Shown here: piece by piece, positions 29,576 through 56,340 of the stretch | How the letters are laid out: each line of letters starts with the position of its first letter | Position numbering within the stretch: the first letter of the stretch is position 1 | DNA from: Micropterix aruncella | Lineage: Eukaryota > Arthropoda > Insecta > Lepidoptera > Micropterigidae | Assembly: GCA_944548615.1 (NCBI GenBank) | Contig: OX155962.1 | Location: forward strand, 3,159,809 to 3,223,808 | DNA: 64,000 bases | Reading direction: 5' to 3' | Position numbers and translations under genes: made by a program | Notes under the pieces: generated by a model | The model's input: only the letters and a program-made list of their open reading frames with translations | Told to the model about the DNA's origin: nothing | Database searches by the model: none

Positions 29576-31890
29576 AAAGATACCTAGTCAAAAAAGTACA
29601 AGTCATTGTCAAAGTCAAATAATTTTTGGTAGTTAGTTGAATGTTAATATATACTCAACATACATGTTTAAAAATATGTTAATAATTTGTGCACCTAAGT
29701 TTTATTAGACTAGAATAATGACCCACAAAGGAAAAAATTATTAGCAAATTGGTAATAAAGAGTGCAACTTTATTTAACCCCACAAATGACTGGCGATTAG
29801 CTCGGGTTTGCCTACGGCAAAATGTATATAAATTTATATTTACATTTACATTTACATTTACATAGAGCGGGGTTTACTATAGAGCTACAGCATTACTATA
29901 GAGCGGATTACTATAAAGCGGCGCACATTTACTTTTATATTTACATTTATATACATTTTGTATACATTTTGCCAAGGCATCCATTATTGGACGCCTCACA
30001 TTTGAGGGGTGGTTCTTATTCCCCGGTCAAAAAAATCTGTATTGCATCAGCTAGGTTGAAGCTACGTTCCCTCGTTACGGCGAGATTCCTTCGAAAACAT
30101 TTTAGAAGCGCTGGCATAAAAATATATTAATGGCATGGGTGTACGGTATAGGTTGTTTAAAATGGGGTCCACCCCGCCATACGACCTTCCACGGACCAAG
30201 GTAAAGTTCAAGGACTTCATCTCTGGGACTGGTTTCGAGGCGGTGATCGATTATGACCCACTCTTTGGGCTCCGCCGCTCCCACTTCTGAGACGCGGCGG
30301 GGGCCGTCGCGATGTCCAGTTATTTCTTGGGCAAACAATTTACAGTACGTAGATAGCTGGCTAATTAATTACCTACCTGCATACGTATGCCTTTTTATTT
30401 CGCTGGGTATGCAGCTGGCTATTAAAAATACACTGTCAGCATTCTAACGTCCCTACAATATTAACGATAATATACGAATCGACCCAGGTTGATCAAAATT
30501 ATTAACTTATCTCAAACAAACCGCAGAAATACATAAAATGATCATATTAGGTAAAGGCGCGAAGTAAACGACGACCCACAATGTACATGACTATCCTCAG
30601 CGCATACCTAACTATGCTGAATAATATCTGGGCATACGAAGTATTGTCTGACTTGTGTGGAGAAGCATATTTGACGTGGTACGTATGACATAACTGAGGA
30701 CAATTCTCATTATATGCAAGTATTAATATCCTCGGTATTTAAAGCTAAATAATTATTGAAATTGTTATTCGATAAAGAAAATTTAAGGCCAAAAACTTTG
30801 TTTGAAAAATATATATTATTTAATTAATTTTAATATTGGCATATTGATCCATGCAGATTTCTCATTTTAATTGGAGTTGTTTAATTCCTCTGCTGTAAAA
30901 CTCTTATGGACAGGAACCAATGAATGCTTTGAAGGCGTTTTTCACCGACTCTTCAAAGTTGTCTTGTTTCGTTGTATTGTAAAAAGATATCAAAATTCAA
31001 AAAAAAAAATAAATTCTATTGAAGCAAGGGTCTGGCAAGTACGGTGGGCAAAGAGTCTCAAGCCGCAACTCCTGAACTTTGCAACTGTTTAAAGTAAAAT
31101 ATGTGGTTATACGTTGTCATGCAGAAGCAGTGGCGATGAGCGATTGACCAGGCTCGGTTATTTAATCACGAGCTTCTCCATCGTTGTTTGCAGTTCTTTA
31201 CAGTACACATTTACGGTAACTGTATAGCTGCAGACTGCAAGAAGCTGTAATAGAAAACACCGGCACGCGATCTCATATCAGCAACTTTTCAACTTTACAA
31301 TATTTGAGCAAAAACAAACGACGGAAAGGCAAATAAACAGCTGATTCCTAAAAAAGAATAACGTAGCCTTGAATTAAAATTTATTTGAATTTGAAATTCC
31401 AACTCAAGCCCAAGTTATCTAAGTTCAAAGTGGTCAGTGTGATAAAACAGCAGTTACATATGTAGGTCAGAACCCAATATTATACTATATTACGTAGTAT
31501 AATAGTAAATGTATGCAGGTATATCATTTTTTAAGAGATAGTCTGCAGAACTTTGTTCTCCGTCTTTGAACGACTTAATATGTCGAACCATGAGCCCATT
31601 TTTTATTCAATAAGACGGAACTTTCTAATTTTAGGTGATTGTCTTTAGGAAAATAAAAAAATAGCTTGGGGAACGGCATTAATAGTCTTACCCATCTAAC
31701 TGTGTGCACGTAATTTTGACAGCTCTTGTAAACAACTGTATATTAATATATAATAGCCAGTGACATTTCTTCGTCGACTTACCAAATTCGATATAAACTT
31801 GTGGAGGACAACACTGTGAAAAATTTTCAAAATTGGTTGAGGGATTGGTGAGATATTTTGATTCAAAAAATTCAGAAACTGCTAATTCAA
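29576..31890. other. AT-rich region with one GC-rich block
   Basis: 29840-29960 has (TTTACA)n and an ACTATAGAGCGG repeat. 30138-30345 is GC-rich and reads on the minus strand as PKEWVIIDHRLETSPRDEVL and ELYLGPWKVVWRGG, a protein-like frame of about 70 codons without recognised family. It may be a retroelement UTR. Nothing else is recognised up to the LINE. Confidence 0.35.
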
Positions 31891-31914
31891 TTATTCATTT
31901 ACGCATATCCACAA

Positions 31915-32111
31915 AAACGGTCACTCCCGACCGCTACCGACGAACGATCAGCAGCGGCCACTGTCAGCGGTCATTTGATTGGATGACGCAAATCGGCCGT
32001 ATCACTGACAGCTAGGGTTGTTCACTGTACGATTATCTAAGAAGCGCCATCGATAAATAAACAAACTATCGTATCTGCCATCCTTCATACTTAATAAAGG
32101 GTAATTTTAAA
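31915..32111 (+). promoter_or_regulatory. LINE 5' UTR (internal promoter expected)
   Basis: GC-richer leader (CGGTCACTCCCGACCGCTAC) before ORF1. LINEs of this type use an internal promoter at their 5' end. No specific core element was identified. Confidence 0.35.
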
Positions 32112-33122
32112 ATGGCGATCTTCTGTAAGGCCTGCAATGAGGAGCTAGACAGAGAGGAAGCATTAATATGCTCATCTTGCAAAAAAGAATATCACTACGC
32201 TTGTGCTGGGAAAAGCCATGAAAATTTCAAAAAAATGGCATCTGAAACTAAACTATCCTGGAAATGTTGTAAAGCCAAGAAGAACTCGTCGTCTTCGTCT
32301 TCAACGGATGATCAAATTATGGCTCTGGACCAACTCCGAAAGGATCTATGCACACAGTTTCAGAAGTCGCATAATGACGTTATGCAAAAACTGGACGCCC
32401 TTGTAAATAAGGTCAATCAGGTAAATAACGACCACGAAGAAATCATGAAAAGCATTAAATTTCTAAATGAAAACTATGATGACATGAGGACTAGAATCAA
32501 GGTGTGTGAATCGTTAACACCCAAGATAGGAATCCTGGAAAAACAAAATGCCGATCTACGTCATAAACTGGAATTCCTCGAATACAAGATGGATGAGAAA
32601 GACCAGAAGATAAATGAAACAAAAGTGGAAATTAGAGGAATACCTGCTCTTCAACAACACAATCATCGTTTGATCGTAACGCAAATTGCGTCAAAAATCG
32701 GATTAGAAATACAAGAAGACGATTTAATTTCGACATCACTGCTGGAGGCCCGTGGATCGGGAATAGAGAGTGGCACTAATAGCGGCGCACATTCAACAAA
32801 TCAAACGTTAATCGCTTCATTCAAGTCATCCCGTATAAGAAATGATTTTTTAGATGCATCTAAGAAATATAACAAGGCGAAACGATCAAATGATCAAAAA
32901 ATAAACACCCACGATATTGGTATGTCCGTTAAGCATCCTATATACATTCAAGAAGCTCTTACTCCTCTACGGCGCTATTTACATCTACAGGCGAGGAAAT
33001 TAAGTAGAAATAAAAATTACAAATATATTTGGCTAAAGAATGGAATCACTATGGTAAAGAAAGACGAAGATAGCCGCGTACTGATGATCAAATATTTAAC
33101 TTCTCTTGAAAATATTTTGTGA
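32112..33122 (+). CDS. LINE ORF1 protein (zinc finger, coiled coil, FP-like domain)
   Basis: A 336-residue product starting at an ATG in strong context (TTTTAAAATGGC). Residues 5-53 form a PHD-like finger: C5-x2-C8, C20-x2-C23, H28-x2-C31, then WKCC. The last cysteine pair is incomplete. About 70-175 is a charged, heptad-like coiled coil. About 180-336 resembles the RNA-binding C-terminal domain shared by many insect LINE ORF1 proteins and the baculovirus FP25K protein (VEIRGIPALQQHNHRLIVTQ, then YKYIWLKNGITMVKK, then a final DSRVLMIKYL). ORF1p binds element RNA and acts as a chaperone in the ribonucleoprotein. The stop is TGA at 33120. The same frame then remains open for 343 codons, which is unusual. 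Confidence 0.85.
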   Translation: MAIFCKACNEELDREEALICSSCKKEYHYACAGKSHENFKKMASETKLSWKCCKAKKNSSSSSSTDDQIMALDQLRKDLCTQFQKSHNDVMQKLDALVNKVNQVNNDHEEIMKSIKFLNENYDDMRTRIKVCESLTPKIGILEKQNADLRHKLEFLEYKMDEKDQKINETKVEIRGIPALQQHNHRLIVTQIASKIGLEIQEDDLISTSLLEARGSGIESGTNSGAHSTNQTLIASFKSSRIRNDFLDASKKYNKAKRSNDQKINTHDIGMSVKHPIYIQEALTPLRRYLHLQARKLSRNKNYKYIWLKNGITMVKKDEDSRVLMIKYLTSLENIL

Positions 33123-34154
33123 AGGGGGTATGCCCGTACTACAGGTAGTTTTAGTTCTTTATTTTTAGCTACTATTGATACACTTATATTATGTCTATGG
33201 CGTTCACTAATTTTATTTTTATTTTTATTATTAATTAGTAACTTCCTATACTGCAACCAAGTAATTTTAACGATCAATTATTTTAATATCATATTTTTGT
33301 ATATTTGCTATTACTTCACCAAGAAAATCAACTCCATTTGTATCGCTAGCTTATATTACAATTATAAAATATTTATATTATTTCATCTCTCTGTAATTGT
33401 CACCATTAATTTGGCTACATTATTATGCTGTTTAACTGTGATAAGTTTAATTATAACTACACACTACCTTTATATATATATATTTATTATAATGTCGGAC
33501 GTTTTCACATTTTTATTTATATTGGGATATTTTACAAACTTTTTAATATTGAATTATTATAAAACTATTTATTTAAACGCGATTTGCGATAATTCCGGTA
33601 GTATTTACATCTGCTTAATTTGTAATAACATATCATACTTTTACGACAATTATAAAATAAGTTATGGTATTTTAACTATATTCATAATCATTATGTCTGT
33701 ATATTTATTACTTTTAATTTTTTTAATTTTGAATATGATTTGCCAATATTATAACCTACCTGTATGTTTATTATATTTATTAATTTTAATGTTTACTAAT
33801 TTTTGCCCTTATGGCAAACTATGTGTATGTTTATTATTCTTAGTATATTTAGTAAACATAATGTTGACGATTATCTGCCGAAATGGCGACTTCGTTGTAT
33901 TCTTATTGTGTTTATCCTATTCAGGAACTTTAATGCTGACTATTATTTGCAATTATTATAACCTCTATGTATGTTTATTATTTTTAGTAATAGTGACTAT
34001 TATTTTCCAGTACTGTACTCTGTTTATTTTCAAATCCGATAATTTTACAATGATATACGCTACCAATATTGCGGATAAAGTCTTGCAAAGTCTCACAAGA
34101 CAGACAAAACTCGCTCTAACTAACAACGCTTATTGCTGCTACAGGCGCGGCTAA
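33123..34154 (+). CDS. In-frame hydrophobic multi-pass extension of LINE ORF1
   Basis: This is the direct continuation of the ORF1 frame after its TGA: 343 sense codons to TAA at 34152. The first ATG in frame is at 33492 (220 codons). The sequence is dominated by Leu/Ile/Phe/Tyr/Cys with about nine to ten hydrophobic segments by eye, such as LILFLFLLLISNFLY, GILTIFIIIMSVYLLLLIFL and LCVCLLFLVYLVNIMLTIIC. Short polar loops separate them, and a hydrophilic tail of about 40 residues ends YCCYRRG. The other plus frames are full of TAA and TAG, so the openness is not a simple composition effect, although T-rich DNA favours hydrophobic codons. The product is not recognised. It could be a readthrough extension, a separately initiated membrane protein, or part of a longer ORF1 cut by a mutation to TGA. 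Confidence 0.6.
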   Translation, partial: RGYARTTGSFSSLFLATIDTLILCLWRSLILFLFLLLISNFLYCNQVILTINYFNIIFLYICYYFTKKINSICIASLYYNYKIFILFHLSVIVTINLATLLCCLTVISLIITTHYLYIYIFIIMSDVFTFLFILGYFTNFLILNYYKTIYLNAICDNSGSIYICLICNNISYFYDNYKISYGILTIFIIIMSVYLLLLIFLILNMICQYYNLPVCLLYLLILMFTNFCPYGKLCVCLLFLVYLVNIMLTIICRNGDFVVFLLCLSYSGTLMLTIICNYYNLYVCLLFLVIVTIIFQYCTLFIFKSDNFTMIYATNIADKVLQSLTRQTKLALTNNAYCCYRRG

Positions 34155-37113
34155 CCTCGATGAATACCTAATACCTTACTCCCCGGCGACGCTGCAGTTA
34201 CCCACCTGGGAATGCCAAAAGGTGTTGCAAGACCAAGGTATTAAAATACTTAACCTTAATATTAGAAGTATCAACAAAAATTTTGATAAACTAATCATAC
34301 TACTAACTTTGCTTGATACCGAGTTTGATTTAATCATCCTGACAGAATGCTGGATAAAGAAAAATATTCCCACTCAACAACTTGATAATTATGATATGCA
34401 TTACACTCTACATAATCAAAATCAAAACGATGGCGTCGTCATTTTTTCGAATAAGAAAAACAATGTTAAAATTGAAGAAATAAAAATAACCACAGCAAAT
34501 TGTCTGAAGGCTACTTTAAATGATAAAAATACAGTATTTGCCATTTATAGATCCCCTACAAATCCTATAAAACCATTTATTGCGTCCCTTGCGGATGCTC
34601 TAGAAACCTACAAAGGCCTTGAATATATTCTTGGAGGAGATATAAATATTAATATTCTCGATCAAAATAATCTAGTCAATGAATATCTCTGTATGCTTGC
34701 AGAATTTGGAATGATATCCTTAATTAACATGCCTACACGACAGCGGTCATGTCTCGACCACTTTTTTACTTCGATTAAAAATAATACATTAGGCATAATA
34801 TGTCTCAGTGAGCTAACTGACCACTTTCCAACTATTTTGTTAACTAAAACAGATCTTCAAAGTCAAAACATAATTAATAGTCGGATTTTAGTTACAAATT
34901 ATGACAGTTTATACGCAGATATTACAGACATTGACTGGAATCCTTTATTTAGAATATCTGATTCAAATGAAGCAACTGAATTTTTCGTAAATACAATAAA
35001 AAAATTGGTCAACAAAAATACAAAAGAAAAACTCGTGCCCCATTGTCAGAGAAAACTTAAACCATGGATTACCCCAGGACTCCTAAGAAGTATTAAACGC
35101 AGAGACAAACTTCATAACAAAGTCAAATTAAATCTCGGCAATAGCATATTGAAGCATGAATATCTGAAATATAGAAATCTTTGCAAAAACATAATAAATA
35201 GAACTAAAGAAATGTACTACAAAAAGGAATTTGAGGAAAATGCTGGTAACTCAAAAAAAACATGGCAGTTAATAAATGATTTGACTTATAGGAAAAAGTC
35301 CAAACCATCAGAGCTGCAAGAAGTCAATATTAATGGACAGAAAGTGACAATAAATAAGCATAACAAAAAACATATTGCGGATTACTTTAATGATTATTTC
35401 TCCAATATAGGACCGAAAATGGCAGAAAAAACTCTAGAATTGTTAAATACGACTGAAATTAAACTTTCTCTTGAAGCATGTGTTGCAAATACGCCAACAG
35501 AAACCCTTTTTCTAAAACCAACGGACCCCGAAGAAATAAAAAGTATAATAAAAAACCTAAAAGATAAAAAATCAACCGGCAATGACGGAATTTCTTCTAA
35601 AATTTTCAAAGAGTGCAGCGAGACTTTATTGTTACCTCTAACTTTTATTACAAATCTAAGTATATCTACTGGGGTTTTTCCTCAGTGTCTAAAGAAAGCG
35701 GTGGTTAACCCTATCTTTAAAGGTGGGGAGATTAATGAAGTAAATTGTTATAGACCAATTAGTTTGCTAAATACACTATCAAAAATACTCGAACTTACGA
35801 TCAAATCCCGTTTAATGAGCTTCTTAAACAAGCACAACTTATTAGCTTCCACTCAATATGGTTTCCGGTCGGGTAAATCCACCCAAGACGCCATTGCTTT
35901 TCTGACCCAGAATATAGTGAAGACTCTTGATGAGGGAGATAAATGTCTTGTCGTTTTTCTAGACCTTTGTAAAGCATTTGACACGGTATCGCATGCTATA
36001 TTACTAAAAAAGTTACAAAAATGTGGGGTCTGTGGTATTGCCCTGAAATGGTTTACAGACTACCTTTGTGAAAGAACGCAAGTTACAAAGCTTAACGGGA
36101 TTGTTAGCGATGACAGGATTATCAGATATGGGGTACCTCAAGGGAGTGTCCTAGGCCCAATTTTATTTATAATCTATATTAACGATCTAACAAATGTGGC
36201 ATTAGATGGAGGGAAAGCAATCTTGTATGCTGATGATACCGCATTAATCTTCCAGAATAACACATGGCCAAGTGTATATAAAAATGCTGAAAAGGGTCTC
36301 GCAAATATAAATCTTTGGCTAAAGAACAATCTTCTAACACTAAATAGTGATAAAACAAATTATATGACCTTTACGATCACTGACAAAAAGGATTTCGCAC
36401 ACACAGGAATCAAGAGTCATATATGCAAATCATTTCAGAACACTCCTTTAACAAGCACACGCTGTAACTGCCAAATTATTAAACACAAATACCAGGTGAA
36501 ATACCTAGGCATAACCTTTGACAATAACCTAAAGTGGGATCCTCACGTACTTATTACTGCGGGTAAAATCAGGAAGCTGATTTTTGCTTTTAAGGCCCTT
36601 AGAAATGTTCTACCGTTAAGAAGCCTCATTAAAGTCTACTACGCGCTAGCCCATAGCACGATTACATATGGAATATTAGGATGGGGGGGTTCTACAGATT
36701 CGGCGTTAGATCCGCTTGTTAAAGCGCAAAAAGCTCTCCTGAGGGTCATGTCCAGAAAGCCACATCGATATCCAACAAACGAACTACTAAAAGAGCTGAG
36801 ACTTTTGGACGTTAGACAGATTTATGCAAAAGTAACCCTACTTTATTATCTCAACAATCCGCACACACACAACATTACTGACCACAAGATTCTAACTAGA
36901 GGTTGCGCGTCAGAAAAACATTTAATTAAAAAAACCAAAACTAAATTTGCGCAAAGGCACTTTAGTTGTGTAGCTCCTAAACTCCACAATTACTTTCAGG
37001 ATAAGTTAAAACAATGCAAAAGCTTACATATGAAAAAGGGAAAACTTACTTTGTGGCTGTTTGAGACCGGCAGGGAAAAGGTAGCTGAAATTATTACACA
37101 TATCCTCGTTTAA
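34120..37113 (+). CDS. LINE ORF2: endonuclease and reverse transcriptase
   Basis: The frame opens at 34120, just after a TAA, and runs uninterrupted to 37113. No ATG occurs until 34396, which would remove the first endonuclease motif. A GTG at 34222 is the first alternative start. Endonuclease motifs: LNLNIRSINKN, LTECW (Glu), AIYRSPT, GGDINI (Asp/Asn) and LTDHFP (His). RT: RPISLLNTLSKILE, QYGFRSGKSTQ, FLDLCKAFDTVSH, GVPQGSVLGP and YADD at about 36227. A C-terminal YGILGWGG ... QKALLRVM region follows. Function: nicks target DNA and primes reverse transcription of the element RNA. Numbering from 34222 gives 963 residues, about normal for the superfamily. It overlaps the upstream frame by 35 nt in a +1 relation. 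Confidence 0.88.
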   Translation, partial: LTTLIAATGAANLDEYLIPYSPATLQLPTWECQKVLQDQGIKILNLNIRSINKNFDKLIILLTLLDTEFDLIILTECWIKKNIPTQQLDNYDMHYTLHNQNQNDGVVIFSNKKNNVKIEEIKITTANCLKATLNDKNTVFAIYRSPTNPIKPFIASLADALETYKGLEYILGGDININILDQNNLVNEYLCMLAEFGMISLINMPTRQRSCLDHFFTSIKNNTLGIICLSELTDHFPTILLTKTDLQSQNIINSRILVTNYDSLYADITDIDWNPLFRISDSNEATEFFVNTIKKLVNKNTKEKLVPHCQRKLKPWITPGLLRSIKRRDKLHNKVKLNLGNSILKHEYLKYRNLCKNIINRTKEMYYKKEFEENAGNSKKTWQLINDLTYRKKSKPSELQEVNINGQKVTINKHNKKHIADYFNDYFSNIGPKMAEKTLELLNTTEIKLSLEACVANTPTETLFLKPTDPEEIKSIIKNLKDKKSTGNDGISSKIFKECSETLLLPLTFITNLSISTGVFPQCLKKAVVNPIFKGGEINEVNCYRPISLLNTLSKILELTIKSRLMSFLNKHNLLASTQYGFRSGKSTQDAIAFLTQNIVKTLDEGDKCLVVFLDLCKAFDTVSHAILLKKLQKCGVCGIALKWFTDYLCERTQVTKLNGIVSDDRIIRYGVPQGSVLGPILFIIYINDLTNVALDGGKAILYADDTALIFQNNTWPSVYKNAEKGLANINLWLKNNLLTLNSDKTNYMTFTITDKKDFAHTGIKSHICKSFQNTPLTSTRCNCQIIKHKYQVKYLGITFDNNLKWDPHVLITAGKIRKLIFAFKALRNVLPLRSLIKVYYALAHSTITYGILGWGGSTDSALDPLVKAQKALLRVMSRKPHRYPTNELLKELRLLDVRQIYAKVTLLYYLNNPHTHNITDHKILTRGCASEKHLIKKTKTKFAQRHFSCVAPKLHNYFQDKLKQCKSLHMKKGKLTLWLFETGREKVAEIITHILV

Positions 37114-37416
37114 AACGACGTTATCAATTTAATTTAATATTACAATTATATATTACTAATAAATACGTGTATATAAATGAAAATGTATGTAAATAATAAT
37201 AGTATGTAAATAATACAAGTAGGTAAATGTATATATTTATATATAAATAAGAATAATATATGTATAATGTTTAATATTATATAAACATGTAAATATCACC
37301 ATAGTTCTAAATTACGTGCGCATCTTAATTTAAAAGAAAAGAATCTACCCTAGTACGGGCATTAACCTAGTTGGGTAGTTTTTAAGAAATAATTTTTGTA
37401 CTACTTTCAAAATCTT

Positions 37417-37423
<7 letters not shown>

Positions 37424-37455
<32 letters not shown>
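37424..37455 (+). other. LINE poly(A) tail
   Basis: An uninterrupted A run of about 32 right after the 3' UTR (ends AATCTTAAAATTT), the expected end of a LINE copy. Confidence 0.8.
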
Positions 37456-37457
<2 letters not shown>

Positions 37458-39020
37458 ATTCAGGCCTGCAGACGCTCTTGTCGTTATAAATAATATGTTG
37501 CTGGCTTCGCCTAACACCATATATTCGCATAACCTATAGGGAAAACATACCTAGGAAAAGTTGGACTCAAAGGAGAATGCCCATTCATAGTGCACTCAAA
37601 AGAAAGATTGTATCTTTAAAAAATATTAATGCATTAAAGCTAAAATAAAAACATAATTTCTCAACAACTTTCATGACTATTTGTTTCGGGGGTATTTTTT
37701 AATATTAGTACTTTTAAACTTCCGGCTAATGTAATAAGACTTTTTTTACTTGTCAATAATTGTCACGTGGGAAGCTACTGAAAAGAGATGCCTTTTATTT
37801 CTAATGCGTGCTATTTACATTACTGATTACTTAGGTCTACGATATCGATCCCCGGCATCAATCCTTTTTATTCGATGACAAATCCTTATTCACTCGTAAT
37901 AAACTAAAAGTTCTGCTACGAACGTGAATTATACATAATCAAGAACTTTTGAAAATAAACTTGAATTCAGCTATCTTTATATTCACTGTATTTAAGTTTA
38001 TAATATACAAAAGTCGAAGAAAAATAGATAAAAGTAAAATCCATTTATTATTATTATTAGTCTGGTCAAATTTTCTGCAAATCGAACTTTTAGAAGCCAT
38101 TCATGTAACTTTTGGGCAACCGTTATTTTCTCCCTATTTCAACCATGCTAAATCCGAAAATGCCGGTTGCCAAAGCGAAATACCGACCGGAAGTGAGATA
38201 TCCAAGATGGCGGTCAATACGGCGTCGAAACCTGAATTCGGTGCTGTAAAGCTGTCTCCCTTTGACATAGGAACGCGTCAAAATGTCTAGATGTACGGTT
38301 TTGTCTAGATGTACGCGTCCAAAATGTCTAGATGTACGTTTGGGCAATATGGTGGTTTTTGCCAGCACCATATTGCCCTGCCCTATTTTGTCGTACAAAT
38401 GAGCGTGACGAGTCTCGATATATGTTTTTAAACATACGGGTTTCAAAAAATAACTTTTAAACATAGTTCAGCTAAACTTTGATTCAAATCTTTTCAAAAA
38501 TGGAACAAACAAGCGACTTTTTGGTAACAAGAACTTACAGAAACTAAAAAAGATTGCTGTGTGTCTCCAGAATTAAGACAGGTGCGTTTGCAGGGAGTAG
38601 GTACACAGTTTTATGCAAGGGACGTTTTCTTTTCTGCAACTGCAGTTCTGCGATTTACAAAACTCTTTACAGTGGCAAACAACTTCTGTGACGGATTAGG
38701 AATAAGATTTAGCGTCATGAAACCTGGAAAAGCTTGCTCTCCGTCAATGCTCCAGTCGCAGTCTAAAGCGATGGAAGAGATGGCTTAGGAAAGTGGGCAT
38801 TTTCCCAAACACATACCTGTCAAATAAAAAGAAGATTAAAGAACATTTTGACAGTCTTTTGTGTTTTTATTGTGACGAATTCCATGCCAACTTACTTGGT
38901 AGTGGCACCTTTTAATGTGAAGCGCATCCGTTGTAGGTGGATTAAAGAGAGTGATAATGATGATATTGCAATTTGCTGGTAATACAAATAATTTGTATAT
39001 GAAATTCGGTACCAGGAGCA
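37456..39020. other. Unassigned sequence
   Basis: Mostly AT-rich. 38290-38335 repeats GTCTAGATGTACG three times. 38561-38788 is a 75-codon plus-strand open frame (AVLRFTKLFTVANNFCDGLG) that could be a decayed exon, but no family was recognised. No splice-linked exons were found. Confidence 0.3.
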
Positions 39021-44764: not shown

Positions 44765-46225
44765 ATTATTCACAAAGTCTGCCTAACTAGGCCGAAGCCC
44801 GTACCAAGTTAGACTCGACTAGGTCACTTGTAAGTTTTATATTGTTATTTTATTTTATATTATTAAAGTATATTACTGAAAAAAAGGAAAAAGAAAAAAA
44901 AATAAATTAAATAAATCTAATAACTAATAAATATGTAGTCTATGGCGTATGGCGTTCTAAACATGCCTATACCATATCCCACCTCAAAATAAAACATTTA
45001 ATATCTTATTTCATTCAATCTTATTATTTCAATATTATTTACATGAGGATGTCAATTTTCATAATAATTAGGCGTTTTAATGTTCAAGTAGGCTTATTAT
45101 TATTAGTCCTTAGATACGCTAGCAGCTTAAAGCTGATGCGCGCACATCGAAGTTTGGAGTGGTGGTGCACTTTGAATTTTTTTTTTGTTTTTGTGAAGGT
45201 GTCGTCTGTTTTTAAAACTGTTCACGGAAGCTGCACCAATAACGTCCTCTGGGAGTCTGTTCCATGTGTCGACTACACGGTTGGATATAAAGTGTTTCCG
45301 TGGGTTTGATTTGCTTGAGGTTATTATTATTATTATTATATTATACACTAGCAGCTTAAGGCTGATGCGTGTATATCACATGCACTTGTTTTTAAACTTG
45401 TGACTGTTTTGCACTAAGAAAATTGTCCAGTTTATTTTTAAAGCTATTGACAGAGATAGCACTGATCACATCCACTGGCAACGCATTCCAAGCATCCACT
45501 ACACGATTTGTCAAAAAATATTTCCTGGGGTTCGATGCTGCAATTGTCTTATTTAGCTTCAACGAGTGTCCACGCAGTTGCTTATTGGTGTTCAGGGTAT
45601 ACATGCTCTCGAGGTTGGGCACACTGTAATAACCGTGAAGCATTTTGTAGCTTTCTATTAAGTCTCCTAGCTGCCTACGTTCCTCTAATGTTGTCAGGCG
45701 AAGTTCTTTCAGTCGCACTTCGTATGGTTTGTTCCTCAGCGATAGCACCAACTTTGTTGCTCTTCTCTGAACTCTTTCCAGGTGCTCTATATCCTTCCGA
45801 AAGTAAGGATTCCATACCTGGTAGGAGTATTCGAGGAGCGGGCGAATGTAGGTTTTATAGAGCTTGAGGAAAAGTTCACTGGTGATAGTGGAAAAAGCTT
45901 TTCTTATTAAATATAGAAGTGAGTTTGCTCTCTTAACTATTTCGATTATGTGGGCTTCCCATTTGAGGTCCAAGGAGATAGTGATGCCGAGGTCTTTCTG
46001 GGTCATAACTGACTGTACTGTTTTCCCCTCAATCGTATATGCTAGGTTCTGTTTAGTTTTAAGGAGTGTCCACGCAAATGATCGTTTGTGTTCATTGTAT
46101 ACATCAATTTGAGATCTGCTACGTCATATTGTCCTGATAGGATTTCATAGGTCTCTATCAGATCACCTCTGAGTCTTCGTTCCTCCAGTTTTGTAAGGCC
46201 CAGGGTCTCTAAGCGGTTCTCGTAG
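44765..46225 (-). pseudogene. Three abutting CR1-like LINE ORF2 tails
   Basis: Minus strand, right to left. A fragment at 46225-46046 reads LTKLEERRLRGDLIETYEIL. A longer one at 46048-45392 reads KDLGITISLDLKWEAHI, YIRPLLEYSYQVWNPYF, LEERRQLGDLIESYK and VVDAWNALP. A third at 45348-44765 reads RVVDTWNRLPEDV plus a 3' UTR with CTAACTAGGC. All belong to the same protein region, so these are separate 5'-truncated copies lying end to end. The middle copy has an open frame of 204 codons but no RT motifs. Confidence 0.75.
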
Positions 46226-55008: not shown

Positions 55009-56340
55009 TCGCCACTAGTCTCCGACACTGCCAAAAAGTTAGGCAGGCCCTCTTTATTTTGGCATCGATATGACTCGCCCAGTTTAATTTACTGTCAAGG
55101 ATGACTCCCAGATATTTCACCTGTGTTGATAGCGAGAGTTTGGTGTTGAATAATTTTGGTACTTGTAGTTCTGGTAACTTCTTCTTGTTGGTGAAGAGGA
55201 TGAGTTCTGTCTTTTTCGGATTTACTGACAATTTATGTTCGTCATACCATTTTTCTACTATCTGCAAAGCTGAGCGCATGACTTTACATAGCATATTTTC
55301 TGCGTTTCCATTTATCATTATTGTTAGGTCGTCGGCATAACCAATAGTAGTGTAACCCCTTTCATTTAGTGTTTTTATGAGGCTGTCCACTACTATGTTC
55401 CATAGAAGTGGTGATAGGACCCCCCATTGGGGGCATCCTTTAACTACCTTTGCTCTTGTGGTAGTATTCATCACTATCTGGACCGTCCTTTTGCTAACCA
55501 GCTCCGTGATCCATTTTATGGTAACTGGTTCCACTTAAGTTCCTGTAGGGCGTGGTTTATGCTGTTGTGCATGGTTTTGTCAAAAGCGCCTTCTATGTCT
55601 ATAAAGGCGGCGAGTGTTGACAGCTTATTTGTTAGAGCCGATTCTATTTTGTGCACCACCATGTGTAGTGCCGACTCTGTTGATTTGCCTTTTGTGTAGG
55701 CGTGTTGTTGTGGGTGTACCTAGTTGTTTATTTCTTAGTGCCCCATCCCTTAGGTGACGGTCCATCAGTCTTTCTAACGTCTTTAGTAAGAAAGACGTTA
55801 GGCTGATGGGTCTGAAGGATTTGGCGTGTGAGTAGTCCTCCTTTCCTGGTTTTGGTAGGAAGACTACTTTTGCCTCTCTTCATGCCTTTGGAATGTATTT
55901 GAAGGCTATGCAGGCCCTATAGATTGGTAGTAGGTATTTTGTTGCATGGTTCGGTTGCCATCGTAGTAATGCTGGGAAAATGCCATCCAGTCCTGCGGAT
56001 TTGAAAGGTTTAAAGCTTTTCAGGGCCCATTTTATTTTGTCCGCAGTTACTATCATGTTCGCGACTTCCCATTCTTGGGTTATTGGTGCGCTGTAGTTTT
56101 CGTCTGGCCACTCAGGATCTTCTGTGATTTGGCATTCAGGAAAGTGTGTTTCCAGGAGTACTGAGCTGGTTTCTACATCTGTGTTTGTGTAAGTGCCATC
56201 TTCCTTTTTTTGAGAGCCTAGGAGGTTGGGCTCACCTTTAGCTAGGATTTTCTTTATTCTTCCGGCTTGGTTCGTTGAGTTTATGCTACTACAGAAGTTG
56301 TGCCAGGATTCTGTTCTCAGAGGTGGTCCATATTCAGCTA
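55001..56340 (-). pseudogene. I-type LINE reverse-transcriptase fragment
   Basis: Minus strand. RT start KSFRPISLTSFLLKTLERLM (about 55750-55830), then a frameshifted middle. An open frame at 55534-55001 follows with PLLWNIVVDSLI, GYADDLTIMI (the YADD box), VNPKKTELILF and VKYLGVILDSKLNWASHI. Upstream of it is a linker with WHNFCSSINS. A TGA interrupts near 55880. It lacks the C-terminal RNase H; truncated at about 55010. Confidence 0.78.

Follow-up and report, generated by a model that had tools for sequence, protein, structure and literature searches.

The general view of LINEs is that they produce two proteins, through ordinary translation or through re-initiation. The element considered here raises the question of a further product: its first reading frame ends in TGA, and the same frame then runs on towards the second. 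Is this continuation an accident of composition and, if not, how could ribosomes reach it? The original prediction had offered three routes to an extended ORF1 product, namely readthrough of the TGA, a restart at ATG 33492, or a TGA that arose by recent mutation. We examined these in the 64,000 nt of Micropterix aruncella DNA that hold the element (the window) and in its relatives in the host genome.

The element and its open frame

The window element is a near-complete non-LTR retrotransposon, as judged from a reverse transcriptase domain in ORF2, a terminal A-run and dispersed near-identical copies (Table 1). ORF2 matched RVT_1 with an E value of 9e-36, and its endonuclease match was weak (E 0.004, below the cut-off). 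In ORF1 the match to PF25298 was above the cut-off (E 4e-13), a PHD match fell below it (E 6e-4), and a Pygopus PHD match reached 5e-5. No long terminal direct repeat was listed in 31500-37600 by a repeat scan giving the 20 largest families. Three of the 120 ORF2 relatives listed carried a species name, and all were moths (Arctia plantaginis twice, Mythimna separata once). Other reverse transcriptase fragments, about 24% identical to ORF2, lie on the minus strand of the window at 45695-46087 and 55013-56041.

Table 1. Coordinates of the LINE and its features in the window
Feature	Position	Strand	Details
LINE element	31678..37456	+	5' end approximate; 8 near-identical genomic copies align from 31678-31796 on
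ORF1	32112..33122	+	336 aa; PHD-like zinc finger, coiled coil, Baculo_FP_2nd domain; terminates in TGA
TGA stop codon, proposed readthrough site	33120..33122	+	TGA in lineages A-F
Proximal (5') pairing element	33123..33161	+	core ATGCCCGTACTA = 33130-33141, +8 to +19 past the TGA
In-frame extension	33123..34154	+	343 open codons, hydrophobic, fast-evolving; TAA at 34152-34154
ORF2 (endonuclease-reverse transcriptase)	34120..37113	+	open from 34120; without ATG near its start
GGCGCG	34144-34149	+	within the extension/ORF2 overlap
3'UTR pairing region	37333..37378	+	hairpin 37344-37378; loop TAGTACGGGCAT (37351-37362) = distal element core
LINE 3' end (A-run)	37424-37455	+	read in sequence

The extension frame has no stop in 33123-34151, and the other two plus frames of the same stretch have 38 and 21. 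Markov simulation gave a mean of 22.0 expected stops in this frame at order 1 and 19.8 at order 2, with a minimum of 9 among 1000 runs per order, and the longest simulated open run in any of the three frames was 168 codons (order 1) or 176 codons (order 2). Because no simulation fell below 9 stops or opened more than 176 codons, we conclude that the open frame of the window element and its close copies (family A) is not due to chance. The original description of ORF1, its TGA and 343 open codons in phase is thus confirmed, at a length that simulated sequence never attained. Four diverged in-frame repeats, spaced 63-72 nt apart, are visible within the family A extension at 33702-33989.

Lineages that share the layout, and selection on the extension

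The host genome (1.08 Gb), from which all lineages were drawn, holds 117 matches to the extension. ORF1, TGA, an open frame and ORF2 follow one another in seven LINE lineages, A, B, C, D, D', E and F. The extension belongs to the LINE, as had been proposed. The A and B copies were chosen by extension match, those of C, D, D', E, E2 and I by ORF1 match, and that of F by its 5' element; D', F and I are represented by one copy each, and B, C, D and E by one copy each on their 3'UTR side. Each frame was followed to its first stop (except in loci L055 and L065), so that the position of this stop is what counts. One locus whose ORF1 tail is replaced by other sequence (L062) and four without an ORF1 junction (L039, L046-L048) were left out of the counts.

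The stop itself is nearly invariant. Genome-wide matches to the letters flanking it read TGA in 68 of 69 cases and TAA in one; among 37 A/B-type rows, window included, 36 have TGA and one has AGA (L044); and TGA recurs in C, D, D', E and F. The idea of a recent mutation to TGA therefore fails. Of the 37 A/B rows, 27 keep the frame open over its full length and the other 10 lack it, a proportion biased towards openness by the choice of copies through the extension itself.

Family A comprises many near-identical copies. Family B shares its ORF1 (91-92% identity over the full length) and, at about 78%, the first half of its extension; the second half differs, and the N-terminal part of ORF2 is only about 45% identical. 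The family B extension is again open, for 333-338 codons. With ORF1 at about 90% and the N-terminal part of ORF2 at about 45% identity, the two families look chimeric, with the switch inside the extension (L029-L043 against the window). Downstream of one family B copy, a single frame is open over all 3.8 kb (L049:1-3800).

The deeper relatives found by an ORF1 search share 54-65%, about 41% or about 30% identity. TGA also closes ORF1 in lineages C, D, D' and E, and the frame of ORF1 continues open towards ORF2. Six of seven C loci are open to the ORF2 start region, the seventh (L055) having one stop; in one open C locus (L052) the frame ends about 20 nt before the ORF2 start, and in the others it overlaps ORF2. 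Two of three D loci are open to the same region (L059 stops at codon 288 of 342), as is the single D' locus. In the lineage E copy that was fetched, 138 open codons precede a single stop; a 395-codon stop-free frame was found in 15 of 115 E match rows, fragments and decayed copies included, and for 12 of these 15 the TGA element lies exactly 395 codons upstream (coordinates among the first 100 places listed). Lineage F has 153 open codons past its TGA, overlapping an ORF2-like frame that was read without alignment. The hexamer GGCGCG is kept in the extension/ORF2 overlap of A, B, C, D and D', preceded at the homologous place by ATG in family B and by ACG, ACA or GCA in C, D and D' (L029, L052-L061).

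A spliced spacer might also look like an insertion between two frames. Family A does carry good donor-like (CAG/GTAGTT at 33143) and acceptor-like (CTACAG/G at 34144) sequences, and AG/G acceptor-like ends occur in D, D' and two C loci. By eye, however, no comparable donor is present in C, D, D', E or F, the acceptor AG is absent from B and from five of seven C loci, and an intron would not stay stop-free, which makes an intron highly improbable.

Residue-level constraint on the extension is weak. Over all pairs tried, dN/dS ranged from 0.39 to 2.1 and lay mostly at 0.65-1.1; it was 0.66-0.84 between A and B over the first 170 codons, 0.47-0.59 over the rest, where substitution is near saturation, and 0.69-0.72 for C1-C2. 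When the observed substitutions were relocated, about 16 stops were expected over five comparisons and none was seen; as open copies had been selected, stops private to single copies are screened out, and the test bears on changes between lineages. In these simulations amino-acid changes were below expectation in C1-C2 and B-B2 (0 of 2000 simulations as low) and marginally so in A-B (P 0.05), with no deficit in A1-A2 or D. Hydropathy change was below chance in B-B2 only, and ORF1 was strongly constrained in the same test. What is kept is therefore chiefly an open, T-rich frame, with weak constraint on residues. By the simulations, the open frames of several lineages and the pattern of substitution, the in-frame extension has been kept stop-free past the ORF1 stop, as in programmed readthrough.

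The original prediction had warned that T-rich composition favours hydrophobic codons, and the warning was apt. The family A extension has 9 membrane-length segments against 5.8 +/- 1.6 in simulated sequence free of stops and matched in dinucleotide composition, and a mean hydropathy of 1.20 against 0.94 +/- 0.17. In lineage C hydrophobicity lies about 1-2 sd under the composition expectation, and several lineages are near or below it. On the family A figures, T-rich composition accounts for most, though perhaps not all, of the membrane look of the extension. There was no Pfam, protein-search or PDB-sequence match to this extension (7991 candidates scored, none at E <= 0.001 in the protein search). 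A membrane role for the tail is a plausible hypothesis. That the open frame, too, is a mere side effect of composition would fit the unremarkable hydropathy of several lineages, but has next to no probability: it is refuted for family A by the simulated minimum of 9 stops, and it conflicts with the result of substitution relocation and with the 8-20 stops expected in each lineage over the lengths actually open up to ORF2.

Pairing between the TGA region and the 3'UTR

The main feature of these elements lay beyond the view of the original prediction: a covarying long-range pairing of the TGA region with the 3'UTR. In both A and B, the 12-base core just past the TGA and the loop of a hairpin in the 3'UTR are exactly complementary. 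This loop, TAGTACGGGCATTA, occurs 949 times in the genome, compared with 3 occurrences of a reversed control. A general hairpin pattern has 11,449 genome matches against 0 for its control; as written it does not match the A-type hairpin of the window (0), so that these are the hairpins of other lineages. Among the first 100 places matched there are about ten classes of loop, and some copies may, as a guess, be SINEs that borrow a LINE tail.

Other lineages have different letters past the TGA, each with a matching complement in its own 3'UTR loop region. With flanks, the predicted duplexes comprise 23-33 pairs at -32 to -45 kcal/mol, involving about 30-40 nt past the TGA and a partner about 4 kb away; in the window the 3' bases taken are 37333 to 37368. 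When the 3' hairpin was scanned against 1.1-5.2 kb of each element, the TGA was the best site in all seven TGA lineages, with the next-best site 8-22 kcal/mol weaker. The short loop alone placed the TGA first in five of six lineages; D fails, and needs the longer segment. Conversely, for the TGA element against its own fetched 3' stretch, the hairpin was the best partner in 6/6, and none of 100 shuffles each was as good.

Each lineage also tends to favour its own partner. The assignment of each 5' element to its own 3' partner was the best of the 120 possible for five lineages, B being omitted as its loop equals that of A. Row by row, the own 3' partner was best in five of six cases; the family A 5' element pairs better with the 3' segment of B (-33.3) than with its own (-27.4). 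In a 14-bp core, whose register we chose manually on the basis of the predicted duplexes, 88.8% of cells were paired over seven lineages (86.9% with six lineages alone), and slid registers gave 31-43%. Eight of the 14 pairs had changed on both sides, against 3.8 in shuffles. On four of five measures none of 500 shuffles was as good; the fifth, the number of pair types, was reached in 56 of 500.

Lineage F provided a prediction. Its loop, TTRGAACAGGCGGCAG, had been predicted from the 5' element while the 3' end of that copy was still to be fetched, and is a class already met among the genome-wide hairpins. The 3' end holds TTGGAACAGGCGGCAG, which pairs with GCCGCCTGTTCTGA, including two G-U pairs. 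F alone was confirmed of three candidates fetched together (F, G and H), and no 3' hairpin was found for G (two windows) or H (one window). Candidate G was rejected as a 5' element: the copy concerned (L078) reads as an antisense B-type 3' hairpin, and among the first 100 of 131 places the exact antisense string was present at four and a near-identical one at one. We conclude that pairing of a stop-proximal element with the 3'UTR is supported by covariation.

The strongest core pairing begins 7-10 nt past the stop, near the place at which structures usually stimulate readthrough. Local folding is unremarkable at both ends: neither the 101 nt around the TGA (z 0.69) nor the 3' hairpin region (z -0.24) is unusually stable. 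Of the 3' bases in the duplex, 11-20 are also paired in the predicted local hairpin.

The pairing bears on two further explanations. Separate translation of the tail from an internal start, at ATG 33492 or a non-ATG codon, could draw on that in-frame ATG in A and on an ATG 3 nt past the TGA in three D copies. No start, however, is common to the lineages, and independent initiation needs neither the ORF1 frame nor a duplex at the TGA, which leaves an internal start, and with it the restart proposed originally, very unlikely. Decoding of the TGA as selenocysteine would suit a conserved TGA and an RNA structure in the 3'UTR. We give it almost no chance, as 32000-37480 has no Rfam match up to E 1, and hence no SECIS at that sensitivity, the 3'UTR structure pairs with the stop region, and other lineages have a frameshift site instead. 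Readthrough was the best of the three routes first offered.

Recoding as the probable function

Two lineages lack the TGA. Frameshift sites of the -1 type follow the heptamer rule X XXY YYZ. Lineage E2 (L064; L074 has the same end) closes ORF1 with TAG and has its hydrophobic frame at -1. Its ORF1 codons run AGC ACT TTT TTA GAT, which puts T TTT TTA in the phase that a -1 shift requires (L064:201-221). In the one copy of lineage I, GAT TTT TTA GCC stands ahead of a TAA, with a -1 frame that remains open for about 215 codons (L076:117-139). Neither slippery site has a significant local fold in about 95 nt. From these motifs, -1 frameshifting at U UUU UUA is the probable route of E2 and I to the ORF1-tail fusion. 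E2 retains the 3' hairpin, for which loop and longer-segment scans found no partner near the ORF1 stop; in lineage I no hairpin was found in the one 3' window (L079). Because E2 has neither the 5' element nor the TGA and yet keeps the hairpin, the pairing would seem to serve recoding, a strong argument drawn from one lineage. For the same reason, the hairpin must have another role too.

Such a role enters a competing account, in which the duplex acts in re-initiation or passes ribosomes on to ORF2, or else has a part in circularising, packaging or reverse-transcribing the RNA, and the tail, whether translated or not, is a by-product. ORF2 of family A, without an ATG near its start, must indeed start unconventionally, and the 3' hairpin is very common and persists in E2 without a 5' partner. 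But this account leaves unexplained why seven lineages keep an open frame in phase past the stop, and why that stop is TGA in each, nor does it account for a slippery heptamer and a -1 tail in the pairing-less E2. We regard it as unlikely.

We judge it highly probable that a long-range RNA-RNA interaction drives UGA readthrough, which would add the tail to ORF1, and that -1 frameshifting is used elsewhere in the clade. The element would then make two ORF1 products. Most ribosomes would stop at TGA 33120 and release the RNA-binding ORF1 protein; a minority would decode the TGA as sense, adding a hydrophobic tail of 343 residues. We infer such passage of ribosomes through the TGA from the conserved stop, the open frame and the duplex. 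The stimulator would be the duplex of +1 to about +39 (core +8 to +19) with the 3'UTR hairpin loop and its 5' flank, about 4.2 kb downstream. Duplex and hairpin are probably mutually exclusive, because the duplex takes bases that the hairpin would pair, and a 3' switch like that of tombusviruses is thus possible. Through it, readthrough may be linked both with the integrity of the 3' end and with freeing of the RNA for reverse transcription. In E2 and I the same fusion would arise by frameshifting.

A wider proposal is that a whole LINE clade has a third, hydrophobic domain fused to ORF1 by recoding, through a 4-kb UGA-readthrough switch or a -1 frameshift, yielding a minor membrane-anchored class of ORF1 protein tied to an intact 3' end; the considerations for and against it appear to us evenly balanced. 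Membrane anchorage of the particle through this tail is a hypothesis. The evidence points to virus-like recoding in LINEs, with a fraction of the ORF1 protein carrying a hydrophobic tail. If so, a LINE could check that its RNA is full length via an interaction that also involves the 3' end, from which reverse transcription begins; its life cycle might include a membrane step; and readthrough and -1 frameshifting would replace each other within one transposon group.

In searches of the open full-text papers of PMC, neither readthrough of a stop nor a long-range recoding element came up for a non-LTR retrotransposon, and searches of viral contigs by ORF1, ORF2 or the 3' hairpin pattern gave no relatives. 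The closest parallels are viral. In the tombusvirus PRTE-DRTE system, an element next to the stop pairs with the 3'UTR over a distance of about 3.5 kb, and switching is brought about by structures at the 3' end (PMC3234231; PMC5893793). The LINE resembles Tombusviridae in having a stop between two ORFs of one frame, an element just 3' of the stop that pairs with the 3'UTR (here about 4.2 kb away) and mutually exclusive 3' structures (here predicted); some Tombusviridae members, moreover, use -1 frameshifting instead. It differs as a transposon with UGA and a hydrophobic tail, in place of a virus with UAG and a polymerase product. The proximal element of Tombusviridae sits in a bulge of a large stem-loop and forms a short pairing, whereas here a duplex of 23-33 pairs is predicted and there is no significant local stem-loop.

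Among retroelements, Moloney MLV likewise extends Gag by readthrough with a 3' RNA structure, giving Gag-Pol; unlike in the LINE of the window, the structure is a local pseudoknot, the stop is UAG and the tail is Pol (PMC5009743). For HeT-A and TART, telomeric LINEs and so non-LTR elements too, there are reports or discussions of recoding at or after gag; the passage of the same paper that treats them concerns frameshifting or bypassing, not readthrough, and leaves long-range pairing unmentioned (PMC5009743). Like two-ORF LINEs at large, the elements described here have an ORF1 with domains of RNA-binding type, an endonuclease-reverse transcriptase ORF2 and an A-rich tail; unlike them, they carry a further, hydrophobic frame between the two ORFs, to which recoding apparently gives access.
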